DNA of 55,762 nt from the NCBI GenBank assembly GCA_022768375.1, contig JALEMG010000013.1:1-55762 (forward strand). The letters run 5' to 3'. The DNA is from Lentisphaeria bacterium (GTDB taxonomy: Bacteria > Verrucomicrobiota > Lentisphaeria > Victivallales > Victivallaceae). The position numbers were made by a program, and so were the translations under genes. The notes below the pieces were generated by a model, which was not told the origin of the DNA, searched no databases, and worked only from the letters and a program-made list of their open reading frames with translations. Positions 18,193 to 24,968 of this stretch are shown piece by piece. Position 1 is the first letter of the stretch. Every line of letters starts with the position of its first letter.

Positions 18193-19449
18193 ATGGAAAG
18201 CACTCCGAAATCCCTGCGGCTGCATCTGATGGCGGCCGGCCGGATCAATGCCGGCAAATCCACGCTGTTCAATCTCATTTCCGGGCAGGACGCCGCCATC
18301 ACCTCCCCGGAAAGGGGCACCACCACCGATGTGGTGGAGAAGACCATGGAACTGCGCCCGCTGGGTCCGGTGGTCCTGCTGGACACCGCCGGGACGGATG
18401 ACGATTCCGCGCTGGGGAATCAACGCGGAGAACGGACCGACCGGGCGCTGGACCGGGCCGACGCGGTCCTGCTGGTGGTCAACGCGGACGAATGGGGCGA
18501 ACCGGAAGAAACTTTGCTGTGCCGGGCCAAAGCACGGAAGATCCCGGTCATTCCGGTCATCAACCGGCGGGGAGCGCCGGCGACGGAAGCCTTCCGGACC
18601 TCTCTGCGAACGGCGACCGGCATTCCCGCGCTGGAAGTGTGCGCCGCCGACATTGCGGAACGAAGCGCCTTCCTCGACCGACTCGCCGGAATCCTGCCGA
18701 CGGTGCTTCCGGAGGAACTGGCCGCGCCGCCGATGCTGCGGGACCTGATCGGACCGGGGGCGCTGGTGGTGCTGATGACCCCCGTCGACCTGCAGGCTCC
18801 CCGGGGACGACTGATCCTGCCGCAGGTACAGGCGATCCGGGACGCGCTGGACGGCGACGCGGTCGCGATCACCGCCAAAGAGAATGCCTTCCCCCGCATC
18901 TACGGCGAATTGTCCCGGCGGCCCGATCTGGTGGTCTGCGATTCCCAGGCGGTCGGCGTGATGACCGCCACCACGCCGGACGGGGTGCCGCAGACGACCT
19001 TCTCCATACTTATGGCGAGGATGAAAGGCGACCTCGACACGCTGGCCGCCGGGTGCGCGACGATCCCGTTTCTGCGGCCCGGCGACCGGGTGCTGATCGC
19101 GGAGAGTTGCACCCACCACGCCGGCGACGACGACATCGGCCGGGTGAAAATCCCCCGACTGCTGGAAAAGACCGTCGGCGGCAAACTGGCCGTCTCCGTA
19201 TCTTCCGGCTTCGATTGGCCGCGGGATCTGGAGCAATACCGGCTGATCGTCCACTGCGGCGGCTGCATGCTCAATCGCCGCGCCATGCTCAACCGGCTGC
19301 GGACGGCGAAGGCGCGCGGGGTCGCCGTCACCAACTACGGCATGTGCATCTCCTACTGTACCGGAGTTCTGGAGACGGTGCTGTCCCCCTTCCCGGGGGC
19401 CCTGCGCGAATACCGGGCTGCGCTTGACAAAAAAGGCTCGGGAGTGTAA
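18193..19449 (+). CDS. hydF: [FeFe]-hydrogenase H-cluster maturation GTPase HydF
   Basis: Scaffold on which the di-iron subcluster is built before delivery to [FeFe]-hydrogenase. The 418 residues comprise a GTPase domain (P-loop GRINAGKST 16-24, DTAG 64-67), a dimerisation domain and an iron-sulfur domain. The cluster motifs are CTHH (C306, H308) and HCGGC (H354, C355, C358). It implies that a [FeFe]-hydrogenase plus HydE and HydG exist elsewhere in the genome; none is in this window. ATG 18193 gives the family N-terminus. The ribosome site is weak. Confidence 0.94.
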   Translation: MESTPKSLRLHLMAAGRINAGKSTLFNLISGQDAAITSPERGTTTDVVEKTMELRPLGPVVLLDTAGTDDDSALGNQRGERTDRALDRADAVLLVVNADEWGEPEETLLCRAKARKIPVIPVINRRGAPATEAFRTSLRTATGIPALEVCAADIAERSAFLDRLAGILPTVLPEELAAPPMLRDLIGPGALVVLMTPVDLQAPRGRLILPQVQAIRDALDGDAVAITAKENAFPRIYGELSRRPDLVVCDSQAVGVMTATTPDGVPQTTFSILMARMKGDLDTLAAGCATIPFLRPGDRVLIAESCTHHAGDDDIGRVKIPRLLEKTVGGKLAVSVSSGFDWPRDLEQYRLIVHCGGCMLNRRAMLNRLRTAKARGVAVTNYGMCISYCTGVLETVLSPFPGALREYRAALDKKGSGV

Positions 19450-19452
19450 ATT
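19424..19452 (+). promoter_or_regulatory. Promoter of the NuoE/NuoF/GltD-fusion operon, inside the end of hydF
   Basis: TTGACA (19424-19429), 17-base spacer, TAAATT (19447-19452): nearly the sigma-70 consensus and the best -35 in the window. It overlaps the last codons of hydF, so the diaphorase genes can be expressed strongly without hydF. The leader is about 40 nt. Confidence 0.75.
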
Positions 19453-19497
19453 ATCAATTCGTCGATTTTAGTTGTCACGTTGAAGGGATTTACAGGA

Positions 19498-19950
19498 ATG
19501 AAAAGCGAATTCGATTTCTTGAAGGCCATTCCGCCCGAACCGGGCAATCTCATCAAGGGTCTGCAGTTGCTTCAGGCGACGGAAGACTATATTTCCGATG
19601 AGGGCATCCGGGCGGCGGCGGAATATTTCAACCGGCCCGAGGCGGACGTGGAAGGAGTGGTCTCCTTTTACGCCCAGTTCAAGCGGGTCAAACCGGGCAA
19701 GTACCGGATCTCCGTGTGTGACGGTACCGCATGCCACCTCAAAGGCGCGGTACAGGTGCACGAGTGGCTCTATCAGGACCTGAAACTGAAGCCGGGAGAG
19801 ACCTCCGCCGACGGGATGTTCTCCTTGGAGACCGTCGCCTGTCTGGGGTGCTGCAGTCTGGCCCCGGTAATGAGCGTCAACGGCAAGGTCTTCGGCAAAC
19901 TTGAGCGCAAGACCATGATGAAGATTCTGAAGGAGTTTGCCGAAAAATGA
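19498..19950 (+). CDS. NuoE/HydC-like [2Fe-2S] thioredoxin-fold subunit
   Basis: 150 residues with an N-terminal helical part and a thioredoxin-like domain. The domain binds one [2Fe-2S] cluster through C74, C79 (CDGTAC) and C115, C119 (CLGCC), the NuoE arrangement. It is the small electron-transfer subunit that pairs with a NuoF-type flavoprotein. Start ATG 19498 is preceded by AAGGG and AGGA. It overlaps the next gene by 4 bases. The company of hydF and a HydB-type protein suggests a hydrogenase diaphorase rather than respiratory complex I. Confidence 0.9.
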   Translation: MKSEFDFLKAIPPEPGNLIKGLQLLQATEDYISDEGIRAAAEYFNRPEADVEGVVSFYAQFKRVKPGKYRISVCDGTACHLKGAVQVHEWLYQDLKLKPGETSADGMFSLETVACLGCCSLAPVMSVNGKVFGKLERKTMMKILKEFAEK

Positions 19951-21662
19951 GCAAGATCATCTCGCTGAAAATCGGTTTGGCCAGTTGCGGCGTCGCCGCC
20001 GGCGGGGAAGCGGTGCTGGCCGAATTGAAGAAGTGGACGCAACTGCCCGTCACCGAGGTGGGCTGTATCGGCCACTGTTACGCCGAACCGCTGGTGGAAG
20101 CCTGTCTGGACGACGGCTCCAGCGTCATGTACGGCAACGTCAAGCCCACGGAAGCGTGCGTAAAGAACATTCTGGCGCTGGGAGAGGAGGGACGTTTCGT
20201 CATCCCCGCCGCCCGCCGGGCCAAGGAACTGGTCAAAGTGCTGGCGCTGGCCGGACATATTTCTCCGGTGGTGCTGAAGGAATATACCGATCACGAAGGT
20301 TACGCCGGATTGCGCAAGGCTCTGTCCATGAAGCCGGAGGAGGTCATCGACGAGGTCAAACTCTCCGGTCTGCGGGGGCGCGGCGGCGGCGGATTTCCCA
20401 CCGGAAACAAATGGAGTTTCCTCGCCGCGAAACCCGGCTTCGACAAGACCGTGATCTGCAACGCCGACGAGGGCGATCCCGGGGCGTTCATGGACCGTTC
20501 GCTGATGGAGAGCGTGCCCCATCAGGTGCTGGAGGGTATGCTGATCGCGGCCTACGCCACCGGAGCGAGCCGTCTGATCATCTACTGTCGCGCCGAATAT
20601 CCCATGGCGATCAAACACCTGAAAATCGCCATCGGTCAGATTTATGAGGAAAAACTGAACGTCCTCAACGGCCGCGCGGTGGAAATTTCCATCAAGGAGG
20701 GTGCGGGCGCCTTCGTCTGCGGCGAGGAGACCGCTCTGATCGCTTCGCTGGAGGGACAGCGGGGCATGCCGCGGTTCCGGCCGCCCTTCCCCACCGACCG
20801 GGGCTATCAGGACAAGCCGACGATGATCAACAACGTGGAAACGTTCGGCAATGTGCCGCTGATCCTGCGGGAAGGCGGAGCGAAGTTCGCGGAAGTGGGT
20901 TCCGCCGGCGGCCGGGGCACCAAACTTTTCGCGCTGGCCGGAGACCTGAAATACCCCGGTCTGGTGGAAGTCCCCATGGGCACCACGCTGCGGGAGATCG
21001 TGTTCGAGATCGGCGGCGCCGCCCCGGACAGGGTCAAGGCGGTGCAGACCGGCGGACCATCCGGCGGTTGTATCCCGGTGGAACTTTTCGACACCCCCGT
21101 GGACTACGATTCGCTGCGTTCGCTGGGCGCGATCATGGGTTCCGGCGGCATGATCGTCATCGGACAGGACCGCTGCATGGTGGAAACGGCACGGTATTTT
21201 CTGGACTTCACGCACCGGGAGAGTTGCGGCAAATGCACATTCTGCCGGATCGGGACCACCCGGATGTTTGAGATCCTCGAACGCATCGTCGCCGGCAAAG
21301 GCACCGAAGCCGATCTGGACACGCTGGAGGATCTGGGCAAAAAGGTCAAAGCCGGTTCCCTCTGCGGCCTCGGTCAGACCGCGCCCAATCCGGTGCTGGC
21401 CACGCTGCGGTACTACCGGAATGAATATCTGGAACACGTCAGGGAACACAAGTGCCGGGCCATGCAGTGCAGCGCCATGGTGGACCTGACATTGGATCGG
21501 GACAAATGCGTCAAGTGCAGACTCTGCATCCGCAGTTGTCCGGTGGGAGCGATCAGCGCGGATTTCGTCATTGATCCCGCCGTCTGCACCCGCTGCAACA
21601 GTTGTCTGGACAGTTGTCCGAAACACGCGATCCGCCGGATTGCCACAGGAGAAAAAAAGTGA
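19947..21662 (+). CDS. NuoF/HydB-like NAD(P)H-binding FMN iron-sulfur subunit
   Basis: 571 residues, closely resembling HydB of bifurcating hydrogenases. An N-terminal thioredoxin-like domain (1-75) retains C14, C40 and C44, but the partner of C14 in the usual C-x4-C is missing. The NuoF core follows: GLRGRGGGGFPTG, NADEGDPGAFMDR and GAGAFVCGEETAL for FMN and NADH, then ESCGKCTFCRIGT for the N3-type [4Fe-4S]. The C-terminus holds two further [4Fe-4S] motifs (CVKCRLCIRSCP and CTRCNSCLDSCP). Coupled to both neighbours by overlapping start and stop codons. Confidence 0.9.
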   Translation: MSKIISLKIGLASCGVAAGGEAVLAELKKWTQLPVTEVGCIGHCYAEPLVEACLDDGSSVMYGNVKPTEACVKNILALGEEGRFVIPAARRAKELVKVLALAGHISPVVLKEYTDHEGYAGLRKALSMKPEEVIDEVKLSGLRGRGGGGFPTGNKWSFLAAKPGFDKTVICNADEGDPGAFMDRSLMESVPHQVLEGMLIAAYATGASRLIIYCRAEYPMAIKHLKIAIGQIYEEKLNVLNGRAVEISIKEGAGAFVCGEETALIASLEGQRGMPRFRPPFPTDRGYQDKPTMINNVETFGNVPLILREGGAKFAEVGSAGGRGTKLFALAGDLKYPGLVEVPMGTTLREIVFEIGGAAPDRVKAVQTGGPSGGCIPVELFDTPVDYDSLRSLGAIMGSGGMIVIGQDRCMVETARYFLDFTHRESCGKCTFCRIGTTRMFEILERIVAGKGTEADLDTLEDLGKKVKAGSLCGLGQTAPNPVLATLRYYRNEYLEHVREHKCRAMQCSAMVDLTLDRDKCVKCRLCIRSCPVGAISADFVIDPAVCTRCNSCLDSCPKHAIRRIATGEKK

Positions 21663-23686
21663 GTATCGAATTTTTGATCGACGGCAAGGCGGTGACCGCC
21701 GAACCGGGCCAGACCGTAATGGACGCCGCCAAAGCCCACGGCATCCATATCCCCGGACTTTGCGGGGAGCCCCGCATCAGCAAGACCACCAGTTGCTTTG
21801 TCTGCGTGGTCCGCGACAAAAAGACCGGCAAGTTTCTGCCGTCCTGCTCCGCCCGCCCCGCGCCGGGACAGGAGATCGAAGTGAACCACCCCGACGTGCT
21901 GGCCATGCGCCGCACCGCGCTCAATCTGCTGCTGAGCGAACACAACGGGGATTGCGAAGCCCCCTGCACCCTCGCCTGCCCCGCGCACGCGGCGGTGGAG
22001 GAGTATGTCCGGGCCGCGGCGCACGGCGACTTCGCCAAAGCGCTCGGGATCATCAAGGAACGCATTCCGCTGCCCATGACCATCGGCCGGGTCTGCCCCC
22101 GCTTCTGCGAGAAGCAGTGCCGCCGCAACGTGGACGGCGAACCGGTGGCGATCAACGAATTCAAACGGCTCTCCGCCGATATGTGCTATGATTCCTACAT
22201 GGAGGAACTGCCCCCCGCGTCCGGCAAACGCGCCGCCATCGTGGGCGGCGGTCCCGCCGGATTGTCCGCGGCGTACTATTTGCGGCGGCTCGGCATTGAA
22301 TCCACGATCTTCGAGATGATGCCGAAAGCCGGCGGGATGACCCGTTACGGCATCCCGGAATACCGGATGCCCAAAGCGCTGCTGGACAGGGAACTGGCCC
22401 ACTGGGACAAAATCGGCGTGAAGTTCGAGTACAATCGCAAACTGGGCGAAACGCTGACGCTGGACGAATTGCGGCGCGCGTTCGACGCCGTGATCGTCGC
22501 CGTGGGGTGCTGGCAGGCTTCCGGCATGCGGTGTGAAGGCGAGGAACTGGCCGTCTCCGGCATCGGATTTTTGCGGAACGTGATTGAGAACGACTGCCGC
22601 GCGGATAATCCGGGCCGGGTGCTGGTCGTGGGCGGCGGCAACACCGCCATGGACTGCGTGCGTACCAGCGTGCGGCTGGGCGCGTCCGAAGTGACCTGCA
22701 TCTACCGCCGTTCCGAAGCGGAAATGCCGGCGGAGAAACTGGAGATCCGCGAGGCCCGGGAGGAAGGGGTGAAATTCCAGTTCCTCACCGCCCCGGTCAA
22801 ACTGGAACGGCGCGACGGTCAACTGGTGCTGACCTGTCAGAAGATGGTTCTGGGCGAACCCGACGCCTCCGGGCGGCGCAAACCGGTCCCGGAACCGGGC
22901 AGCGACTTTGAAATCGCCGCCGACACCGTCATCGCCGCCATCGGGCAGAAAACGATCCCGCCGTCCGACATCCCGGTGACCCGCCACGGCACGGTGGCTG
23001 TCGGCACCGACGGCGTGACCGTCGCGGGCAACATTTACGCCGCGGGAGATTGCGTCTCCGGCGCCGCCACCGTGGTGGAAGCGGTGGCTTCCGGCCGCCG
23101 GGCGGCGCTGGCCGCGGCCCGGGACCTGCTGGGTCAGCCGATGCCGGAGGAAGTTCCCGTCAACGTCACCCGGGGCAAGTGGCAGGACCTCTCCCGGGAC
23201 GAACTGGTGGTGCTGCGGAGCGACCTCTCCGAAGCCCCCCGGCAGAAATTGAGTTATCTGCCGCTGGCCGAGCGCAAGACCACATTCAAGGAGGTCTGCG
23301 CCACCATGACTCCCGAGCAGATCGCCGCCGAAGGCCGCCGGTGCATCGAGTGCAGTTGTTCGGACAAGCACGATTGCAAACTGCGCAAATTCGCCGCCGA
23401 AGCCGGATGCAAAGTCGACGCCTACCCCGGGGTCAAACAGCCTCCGGTCTACGATGTGCGCCACCCGGAGATCATTCAGGATCGGGGCAAGTGCATCAAA
23501 TGCGGCGTCTGCGTCAAGATCTGCAAGGAAGTGGTCAACCGATCGCTCCTGTCGCTCCAGAAGCGGGGATTCAAAAGTTGCGTGAGCACCGCGTTCGGCA
23601 CGGCGTTCCCCGATTCCTGCCGGGAGTGCGGCGAATGCATCAACGCCTGTCCCACCGGAGCGCTGGACTGGCGGAAAAAACGCTGA
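21659..23686 (+). CDS. Fusion: [2Fe-2S] ferredoxin domain, GltD-type flavoprotein, two C-terminal [4Fe-4S] sites
   Basis: GTG start at 21659, with AGGAG seven bases upstream; 675 residues. Residues 1-80 are a NuoG/HydA-like [2Fe-2S] domain (four cysteines from GLCGEP to PSCSA). Residues 100-170 are the Cys-rich N-terminal cluster region of GltD (CEAPCTLACP, CPRFCEKQC). Residues 190-500 are the two-dinucleotide-fold oxidoreductase (VGGGPAGLSAAYYL for FAD, VVGGGNTAMD for NAD(P)H, IYAAGDC). The C-terminus has a RCIECSC site and a ferredoxin pair (CIKCGVCVKIC, CRECGECINACP). It probably transfers electrons between NAD(P)H and ferredoxin with the two preceding subunits. No H-cluster motif is present. 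Confidence 0.85.
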   Translation: MSIEFLIDGKAVTAEPGQTVMDAAKAHGIHIPGLCGEPRISKTTSCFVCVVRDKKTGKFLPSCSARPAPGQEIEVNHPDVLAMRRTALNLLLSEHNGDCEAPCTLACPAHAAVEEYVRAAAHGDFAKALGIIKERIPLPMTIGRVCPRFCEKQCRRNVDGEPVAINEFKRLSADMCYDSYMEELPPASGKRAAIVGGGPAGLSAAYYLRRLGIESTIFEMMPKAGGMTRYGIPEYRMPKALLDRELAHWDKIGVKFEYNRKLGETLTLDELRRAFDAVIVAVGCWQASGMRCEGEELAVSGIGFLRNVIENDCRADNPGRVLVVGGGNTAMDCVRTSVRLGASEVTCIYRRSEAEMPAEKLEIREAREEGVKFQFLTAPVKLERRDGQLVLTCQKMVLGEPDASGRRKPVPEPGSDFEIAADTVIAAIGQKTIPPSDIPVTRHGTVAVGTDGVTVAGNIYAAGDCVSGAATVVEAVASGRRAALAAARDLLGQPMPEEVPVNVTRGKWQDLSRDELVVLRSDLSEAPRQKLSYLPLAERKTTFKEVCATMTPEQIAAEGRRCIECSCSDKHDCKLRKFAAEAGCKVDAYPGVKQPPVYDVRHPEIIQDRGKCIKCGVCVKICKEVVNRSLLSLQKRGFKSCVSTAFGTAFPDSCRECGECINACPTGALDWRKKR

Positions 23687-23696
23687 CCGCTCCGGC

Positions 23697-24968
23697 ATGA
23701 AGCGGGCTTGCATCATCACGCTGGGGTGTCGGCTCAACCACGCCGATACCGCACTGCTGACCGACCGGCTGCAAAAAGCCGGTTATGCTCTGGTGCCGAC
23801 GCCGGAAGACCATCCGGAACTGATCATCCTCAACAGTTGCGCCGTCACCGCCGAGGCGGAACGCAAAAGCCGTCAGCAGATCCGCCGGCTGCGGCGGCTC
23901 TGTCCGGGGGCGGAAATCGTGGCCGCCGGATGCGCCGCGGAGTTGGCTCCGGAGCAAATGCGCGCCTGCGGCGCGGACCGCGTCTGGAGCAACCCCGGGA
24001 AAAAACGCCCGGAGGAAGCGTGCCGCCGGAGCCGGGACCTGACCGCGGAGAACTTCACGGAAAACGCCGTGGGCGAATTTCCCTTCCGCACCCGGGCGTT
24101 CATCAAAATTCAGGAGGGATGCGACAATCGCTGCGCCTACTGCATCGTGCCGACGGTGCGGGGGCCATCCCGTTCCCGGCGGTTTTCGGAGTGCGTCGAG
24201 GACTGCCGCCACGCGGTGGCAAACGGTGTCCCGGAGATCGTTCTGACCGGCGTCAACACCTGCGCCTATCAGGACGGCGGGCGGTCGCTGGCGGACCTGA
24301 TCCGGGTGGTGGCGGCGCTGCCGGGGGAGTTCCGCATCCGGCTGAGTTCCACGGAGCCGCACCCGGACGATCTGACGCTGGTTCGCCTGATCGCCGCGCC
24401 GGAGCATCGGCTCTGCCGGTTTCTGCACCTCTCCATGCAGCACGGGAGCGACCGGATTCTGCGGGCGATGCGCCGAAATTACACGGCGGACCAGTTCCGG
24501 CGTTACGCCGACGCCGCGAGAAAGACGGTGCCGGACATCCATCTGGGCACCGATTTCATCGTCGGCTTTCCGGGGGAGACGGACGCGGACTTCGCCGAAC
24601 TGCTGCGCGTGGCCCGGGAAGCGGCGTTCGCCAATATCCACGCATTCGCCTACTCGCCGCGGCCGGGCACTCCGGCGGCGGCCCTGCCCGACCGGGTCCC
24701 GCCGGCCGTGGTCCGGGCGCGCATGGCACAACTGCGGGAAGTCGCGGCGCAAAACGCCGCGGAGTTCGCCGCCCGGCAGCGCGGCAAGATCCTGCCGGTG
24801 ATCCTGGAACGGGAAAGCGGCGGATTCCAGCGGGGGTGGAGCGACAACTATCTGGAGTTGCGTGTGCCCGCGGGCAAATTTCCCCTGCGCCGGATCGTCT
24901 CCATCCGCGCCGACGAAAAAAATCTCGCGGAACGTTTGCAAACTGTCCCGGACGGCGATATTTTATAA
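23697..24968 (+). CDS. mtaB: tRNA t6A37 methylthiotransferase MtaB
   Basis: Radical SAM enzyme adding a methylthio group to t6A37 of tRNA. The 423 residues contain an N-terminal UPF0004 domain beginning ITLGCRLNHADT, with its three cluster cysteines (C in LGC, NSC and AGC). The radical SAM triad is CDNRCAYC, followed by RGPSRSR and a short TRAM-like end (LERESGGFQRGWSDNYLELRV). The GCRLN start and overall form favour MtaB over MiaB or RimO. It follows the GltD fusion after 10 bases. Confidence 0.88.
   Translation: MKRACIITLGCRLNHADTALLTDRLQKAGYALVPTPEDHPELIILNSCAVTAEAERKSRQQIRRLRRLCPGAEIVAAGCAAELAPEQMRACGADRVWSNPGKKRPEEACRRSRDLTAENFTENAVGEFPFRTRAFIKIQEGCDNRCAYCIVPTVRGPSRSRRFSECVEDCRHAVANGVPEIVLTGVNTCAYQDGGRSLADLIRVVAALPGEFRIRLSSTEPHPDDLTLVRLIAAPEHRLCRFLHLSMQHGSDRILRAMRRNYTADQFRRYADAARKTVPDIHLGTDFIVGFPGETDADFAELLRVAREAAFANIHAFAYSPRPGTPAAALPDRVPPAVVRARMAQLREVAAQNAAEFAARQRGKILPVILERESGGFQRGWSDNYLELRVPAGKFPLRRIVSIRADEKNLAERLQTVPDGDIL

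Follow-up and report, generated by a model that had tools for sequence, protein, structure and literature searches.

The window analyzed here, positions 1 to 55,762 of contig JALEMG010000013.1 of a Lentisphaeria bacterium (assembly GCA_022768375.1), includes the [FeFe]-hydrogenase maturation gene hydF followed by three genes whose products resemble NuoE, NuoF/HydB and GltD. The question raised by this locus is which enzyme the trio encodes, and whether that enzyme is connected with a hydrogenase. The three genes, named stnA, stnB and stnC, very probably encode a heterotrimeric electron-bifurcating transhydrogenase of the Stn type, also known as Nfn-Bfu, that would act independently of hydrogenase. 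The StnABC complexes consist of a NuoE-like StnA, a NuoF/HydB-like StnB and a GltD-containing StnC and couple NADPH to NAD+ plus ferredoxin (Kremp et al. 2020, PMC7483475; Kumar et al. 2023, PMC10482914); Schut et al. 2022 placed them in the Bfu family as Nfn-Bfu (PMC9304861). An earlier interpretation of this DNA (the sequence-only reading) had proposed a bifurcating NAD(P)H:ferredoxin complex that either docks with a separate hydrogenase or works without one. The second form of this proposal is supported by the match to a characterized family, and the locus most likely serves to balance the NADH, NADPH and ferredoxin pools rather than as a hydrogenase.

Subunits, conserved residues and proposed electron path

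The predicted succession of hydF, a promoter-like site and three coupled genes was borne out by the profile matches, the hexamers and the gene overlaps (Table 1). The stn genes are considered coupled because neighbors overlap by 4 nucleotides at both junctions (ATGA and GTGA). The stnC product shows the order [2Fe-2S], GltD/NfnB-like FAD/NADP(H) domain, 2x[4Fe-4S], and a Pfam search of this third protein gave no match to the H-cluster domain PF02906, in agreement with its earlier description as a GltD-type protein devoid of an H-cluster.

A sequence search of the PDB ranked Stn/Nfn-Bfu complexes first for all three subunits. The best matches were 9bov_A (577 bits), 8oh5_C (548) and 9n5u_A (510) for StnC (residues 4-670), 9bov_B, 8oh5_B and 9n5u_B (637, 628 and 615 bits) for StnB, and 9n5u_C, 8oh5_A and 9bov_C (127, 116 and 115 bits) for StnA. 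The S. ovata StnABC complex is deposited under 8OH5 and 8OH9 (PMC10482914). From the names and the length difference given in PMC9304861 we infer that 9n5u, deposited as NfnA/B/C, is the T. sibiricus enzyme, and 9bov would be that of Caldicellulosiruptor, the 1178 amino acids of its A chain being a StnC length listed in PMC7483475.

The BfuB and BfuC subunits of Type 1 Bfu enzymes are defined by an FMN domain, a NuoF 4Fe-4S domain, an SLBB domain and a C-terminal ferredoxin domain, and by a thioredoxin-like [2Fe-2S] domain, respectively (PMC9304861). In the window PF01512, PF10589, Fer4 and PF01257 were all found above their cut-offs, and the SLBB domain of StnB scored 26.5 bits in Pfam, slightly below the cut-off of 27. 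These Pfam families are taken by us as equivalents of the InterPro domains used for the Bfu family. Judged by its domains and motifs, StnC has the features of a BfuA subunit, i.e. an N-terminal [2Fe-2S] domain, a GltD/NfnB-like FAD and NADP(H) domain, and 4Fe-4S clusters.

The predicted ligands were inspected by aligning 78 StnC proteins, of which 37 were long forms, 19 belonged to the window's clade (the window itself, 17 of the 55 orthologues fetched as described below, and L174), 19 were other short forms and 3 were unlabelled. A column was called conserved when 85% or more of the long forms that have a letter there show Cys. The window StnC has Cys at 22 of the 22 conserved columns up to the Fer4 dicluster, and the GGGNTA and YRR motifs, present in 77-78 of the 78 rows, are kept. 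The equivalents of Lys170 and Arg239 are K169 and R236. Lys170, described as a strictly conserved ligand of cluster C7 (PMC10482914), is matched by Lys in 37/37 long forms, 19/19 rows of the window's clade and 18/19 other short forms (His in L185). The Cys114 position, V113 in the window, is occupied by Val throughout the 19 members of this clade, and by Cys (22), Val (9), Ile (4) or Ala (2) in the long forms; Val or Ile at this position had already been noted in two homologues by Kumar et al. (PMC10482914). The uniform Val of this clade offers a test of the proposed interplay of Lys170 and Cys114 at C7. In StnA, Cys 74, 79, 115, 118 and 119 fill the five conserved columns, and in StnB 21 of 22 are likewise filled by Cys, including all eight of the C-terminal ferredoxin domain. 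Across the 19 rows of the clade the StnAB cysteines are nearly all kept, the exceptions being the Ala102 column of StnB and Cys171 in two rows.

By homology with the S. ovata and T. sibiricus enzymes, NADPH would pass a hydride to the FAD that StnC carries in its GltD-like part, from which the iron-sulfur chain of this subunit would carry single electrons to the FMN of StnB. The HydBC-like StnAB core would then split the electrons between NAD+ and ferredoxin, the latter docking at the C-terminal ferredoxin domain of StnB. The net direction would probably be the reverse, with NADH, reduced ferredoxin and 2 NADP+ giving 2 NADPH for biosynthesis, considering that the cell also has HydABC, which would be a separate enzyme, and an RnfC-type gene. 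In the S. ovata tetramer the FdhF domain, missing here, takes part in the contacts, and the oligomer of the window enzyme would be a different one.

Table 1. Features of the hydF-stn locus in the window, and hydrogenase gene sets of three same-family relatives.
Feature	Position	Strand	Profiles or remarks
hydF, [FeFe]-hydrogenase maturation GTPase	18193-19449	+	TIGR03918, PF18128, PF18133, PF01926
Promoter-like site TTGACA-17-TAAATT of the stn operon	19424-19452	+	Overlaps hydF 3' end
stnA, NuoE/HydC-like, one [2Fe-2S] expected	19498-19950	+	PF01257
stnB, NuoF/HydB-like FMN subunit, C-terminal 2x[4Fe-4S] ferredoxin domain	19947-21662	+	PF01512, PF10589, Fer4
stnC, 675 amino acids, GTG start	21659-23686	+	Fer2_4, Fer4_20, Pyr_redox_2, Fer4 dicluster
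Radical-SAM UPF0004 gene	23697-24968		Begins 10 nucleotides past stnC
hydC / HydB-GltD fusion / hydA sets	L190:2448-7958, L191:2692-8227, L192:2557-8083		

Distribution and phylogeny of the short StnC

Among 288 genomes of the phylum, full-length StnC matches of at least 820 bits were found in 60, all of them members of the window's order, including 20 of 20 genomes of its genus; outside the order the best match in the phylum did not exceed 522.1 bits. A recently described bifurcating transhydrogenase would in this way be extended to an order in which 60 of 75 sampled genomes are positive. In a scan of named genomes, in which the best 80 of more than 590 loci were considered, a StnB match was found nearby in 61, and the other 19 were cut contigs or StnC-like proteins without StnB. 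Counted from the match start, the complete StnC has about 1070-1260 amino acids in most rows from Firmicutes, Cloacimonadota and Bacteroidales. It has 668-699 amino acids in the window's order, in rows from gut Oscillospiraceae/Ruminococcus, in Lentisphaerae/Verrucomicrobia records, and in single loci of Dehalococcoidales, Clostridiales, Gemmatimonadales, Spirochaetia and Bryobacterales. At the four cluster columns borne by the FdhF-like domain, the 19 members of the window's clade all show gaps, as do 18 or 19 of the 19 remaining short forms.

Two quick, unrooted trees were calculated from StnC plus StnB. The first (LG+G4, 76 rows) was obtained after 23 of 99 candidates with StnB or StnC missing or partial had been dropped, and placed a long branch, L169, next to the window's clade; the second (mixture model, 50 rows) omitted L169 and 25 others. 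About one third of the inner branches are weak (20/73 and 15/47), and rows with an unusual letter make-up number 7 and 4, respectively. The group of short forms was defined after the first tree and before the second, with three rows unlabelled; frames cut by a contig end were labelled long if they had over 100 additional residues (e.g. L133 and L158). The transition between short and long occurs at least four times on the 76-row tree and five times on the 50-row tree, on which forcing the short forms to be monophyletic cost 431 log units (25 rows versus 24, p-AU 3.7e-66). These trees, with their many weak forks, point to the short forms not being one clade. The short clade of Oscillospiraceae is nested among long forms and has as sisters two frames of intermediate length, 929 amino acids in L122 (from 4998) and 734 in L124 (from 1820), both counted from the match start, which suggests that the FdhF domain was lost in this group as if by erosion. 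For the window's clade, which sits on a long stem, gain and loss of the domain cannot be told apart because the trees are unrooted.

The short Stn operons of L088, L090, L111 and L112, which are from records of other Lentisphaerae/Verrucomicrobia and of the rumen, are located inside the gut Oscillospiraceae clade, far from that of the window, a placement that suggests gene transfer. A further stripped form of the short StnC, in which some cysteines of the last Fer4 dicluster are missing, was found in relatives from the genomes G035 and G050 (L091:6501-8528 and, likewise, L089:2495-4525).

We consider it somewhat probable that these proteins define a natural minimal Stn, in which a StnC of about 675 amino acids bifurcates fully although it has neither the FdhF-like domain nor the side-branch cluster of that domain, either as a single StnABC protomer or through another interface, the domain having been lost (or gained) repeatedly and being eroded in gut Oscillospiraceae. 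If this is the case, the proposal that the FdhF branch is an evolutionary remnant would be confirmed, and a smaller enzyme would be available for study. The natural enzymes devoid of the domain could also serve to test why it is needed in S. ovata yet absent here.

The hydF neighborhood and the hydrogenase and glutamate synthase genes

Of the 67 full or long partial StnC matches in the phylum other than the window, 60 stretches were fetched (55 orthologues and 5 more distant proteins), and 47 loci were evaluable, i.e. they had stnA in the fetched stretch and at least 1400 nucleotides upstream of it. The gene hydF stands beside stn in 6 of these 47 loci, in addition to the window, and is absent there in 41. 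All seven loci belong to the window's genus and share the order folE, rhaA-like gene, hydF, stnABC, mtaB-like gene; by the match coordinates of stnC and hydF, the link is present in 7 of the 20 genomes of the genus. In G073 hydF is on the contig of stnC about 60 kb away, and in G106, of the same family, it is about 6 kb from the stnC 3' end on the same contig. Because it is confined to so few loci of one genus, the pairing looks like a recent and incidental arrangement of one sub-clade; a conserved functional pair was rejected on the same distribution, and hydF is probably a chance neighbor outside the Stn complex. The window hydF matches TIGR03918 over its full length (465.9 bits, cut-off 325.55), and an alternative start is possible at an upstream GTG (18073).

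Four promoter-like sites were found in the 6.25 kb scanned, compared to a shuffle mean of 0.7. Both hexamers and their spacing are identical upstream of stnA in six of the seven hydF-linked loci, though much of the flanking sequence varies, and therefore the site at the hydF 3' end is probably real; the seventh locus, L036, has TTGAAA-17-TATCTT instead. A search for hexamers across 26 loci, took the best site per approximately 130 nucleotides without a shuffle control; in the loci lacking hydF this site had different hexamers and scored 7-10 of 12. Downstream of stnC, the UPF0004 gene, whose product we take to be MtaB-like, is found in 16 of the 19 fetched loci of the same genus; it is perhaps co-transcribed with stn, and a functional link is not evident.

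The window's genome (2.25 Mb in 64 contigs, 94.75% complete) was searched for the genes that the sequence-only reading had named, and each was found: hydA on contig C46, hydE on C9, hydG on C14 and gltB on C4. The view that no catalytic hydrogenase is present is accurate for the locus and not for the genome, which has one HydA match, the last gene of a hydC-hydB-hydA operon preceded by a Rex-type repressor gene. This HydA shows TSCCPGW, MPCQAKK and MACPGGC and is assigned in NCBIfam to the NADH-dependent [FeFe]-hydrogenases of group A6 (871 bits). The gltB gene (1688 bits) lies together with a gltD-like gene. The earlier interpretation had itself named a hydA or gltB gene with dedicated subunits elsewhere as evidence against it, and both are present, since hydA has its own subunits and gltB its own partner. 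StnB and HydB, which are 52% identical, are the only NuoF-like proteins found, and RnfC is present (515 bits). In line with an Stn enzyme, NfnAB was not found in this genome: the other long GltD-like match adjoins gltB, and the single PF10418 protein is PyrK rather than NfnA, as its gene adjoins a PF01180 dihydroorotate dehydrogenase gene. The possibility that the FdhF domain is encoded by a split gene elsewhere was rejected, there being no match to PF00384 (molybdopterin oxidoreductase) in this 94.75%-complete genome.

Several observations weigh against a bifurcating Stn enzyme in the window. Deletion of the FdhF-like domain from S. ovata StnC led to no functionally active complex (PMC10482914), and the window StnC lacks this domain of about 490 residues, its open reading frame ending at the Fer4 dicluster. 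StnB has Ala102 at a column where the 37 long forms have Cys in 33, Ala in 3 and a gap in 1. Two stnC orthologues of the window's order, 54-55% identical (L086:2486-4528 and L087:4766-6784), have no stnA or stnB beside them, the rest of those genomes not having been searched (in L079 the end of the contig is too near to judge). A second HydA was not found either, and this absence, like that of NfnAB, is not final because the genome is 94.75% complete. The deletion result would also fit a different enzyme, uncoupled by the loss of FdhF: a non-bifurcating NADPH:NAD+ transhydrogenase or a reductase of acceptors such as sulfur or oxygen, resembling the related T. litoralis Nso, to which the role of an NADPH-dependent sulfur/oxygen oxidoreductase was assigned (PMC7483475). 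This is improbable in our estimation: non-bifurcating homologues lack clusters B2-B5 (PMC9304861), but the window retains the core cysteines of StnAB, with the eight of the ferredoxin domain among them, its clade retains nearly all, and T. sibiricus Nfn-Bfu bifurcates despite a partial C-terminal domain (PMC9304861, PMC10482914).

A connection with hydrogenase could take the form of StnABC docking with HydA, or of StnAB exchanging with HydBC, so that H2 would be coupled to NADPH. The position of hydF in the window and its six relatives, and at a short distance in G106, is compatible with this idea, as are the identity between StnB and HydB and the resemblance of the iron-sulfur domains at both ends of StnC to those of HydA. 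But HydA is encoded together with HydC and HydB partners in a single operon that follows a Rex-type regulator gene, hydF is not adjacent to stn in the majority of evaluable loci, and stnABC is preceded by a promoter-like site of its own, all of which render docking, as proposed earlier, very unlikely. A weak argument is added by the genome G129, where StnC is full-length and HydA was not matched; G129 is 89% complete and has hydF, so that hydA may be missing from the assembly. Still less credible, to the point of being practically dismissed, is a simple glutamate synthase, with StnC as its small subunit and the other genes as accessories, or a hydrogenase of the glutamate-synthase-linked group A2, the latter having also been considered in the sequence-only reading. 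The best NCBIfam match of StnC is indeed named 'putative NADPH-dependent glutamate synthase small subunit' (608 bits, not reaching the cut-off of 916), but gltB and its gltD-like partner are on another contig, and StnC has HydA-type N- and C-terminal iron-sulfur domains, its gene being coupled to stnA and stnB. A group A2 hydrogenase is recognized by a GltA/GltD-domain protein without NuoF directly downstream of HydA (PMC5037454), but there is no HydA beside StnC, the sole HydA found being the end of hydCBA.

A GltD-bearing hydrogenase is found in three same-family relatives as a different gene set, composed of a hydC-like gene, a HydB/NuoF-GltD fusion and a HydA-type gene of 591 amino acids (Table 1; the latter assigned by Pfam/NCBIfam on the L190 copy). 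The fusion has 1068-1096 amino acids and, according to Pfam, no C-terminal Fer4 dicluster in any of the three; it is not of group A2 by the HydDB rule because it is upstream of hydA and contains NuoF.

Comparison with known systems

The Stn reading agrees with S. ovata StnABC in the three matching subunits, the cysteines of the shared region, the equivalents of Lys170 and Arg239 and the lack of an H-cluster. The differences are that S. ovata StnC has 1172 amino acids versus 675 in the window, from which the FdhF-like domain (683-1172) and its four cluster cysteines are absent, and that Cys114 is replaced by Val. In a narrow sense, then, the S. ovata-type architecture, with a C-terminal FdhF-like domain carrying a [4Fe-4S] cluster, is not present. 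Furthermore, S. ovata is an acetogen, and the organism of the window's genome may not be one. Table 1 of PMC7483475 includes 24 StnC proteins of 891-1241 amino acids, none from Lentisphaerota or Verrucomicrobiota, and an Stn without FdhF was not found in the titles and abstract openings of the literature searched. The short proteins as such are known, since the NCBIfam model PRK12814, named putative glutamate synthase small subunit, has this length (657 positions); we think that this name is misleading for the short StnC.

The T. sibiricus Nfn-Bfu shares with the window the BfuBC core and an NfnB-like third subunit, and bifurcates without the cysteines of one cluster of the C-terminal domain (PMC9304861). 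The third subunit of 9n5u, with 963 amino acids, has a partial C-terminal domain, whereas the window StnC has none. The glutamate synthase and group A2 hydrogenases differ from the trio in having GltB and an adjacent HydA, respectively. The bifurcating [FeFe]-hydrogenase HydABC has a similar HydBC-like core, which is combined with HydA and its H-cluster instead of the NADP(H)-type GltD-like subunit of the window. NfnAB has in common with StnC the GltD-like NADP(H)/FAD domain, but no NfnA partner was found for the window protein, a lysine stands, as in StnC, where NfnB has its glutamate ligand, and bifurcation is expected to occur at the FMN of StnB.

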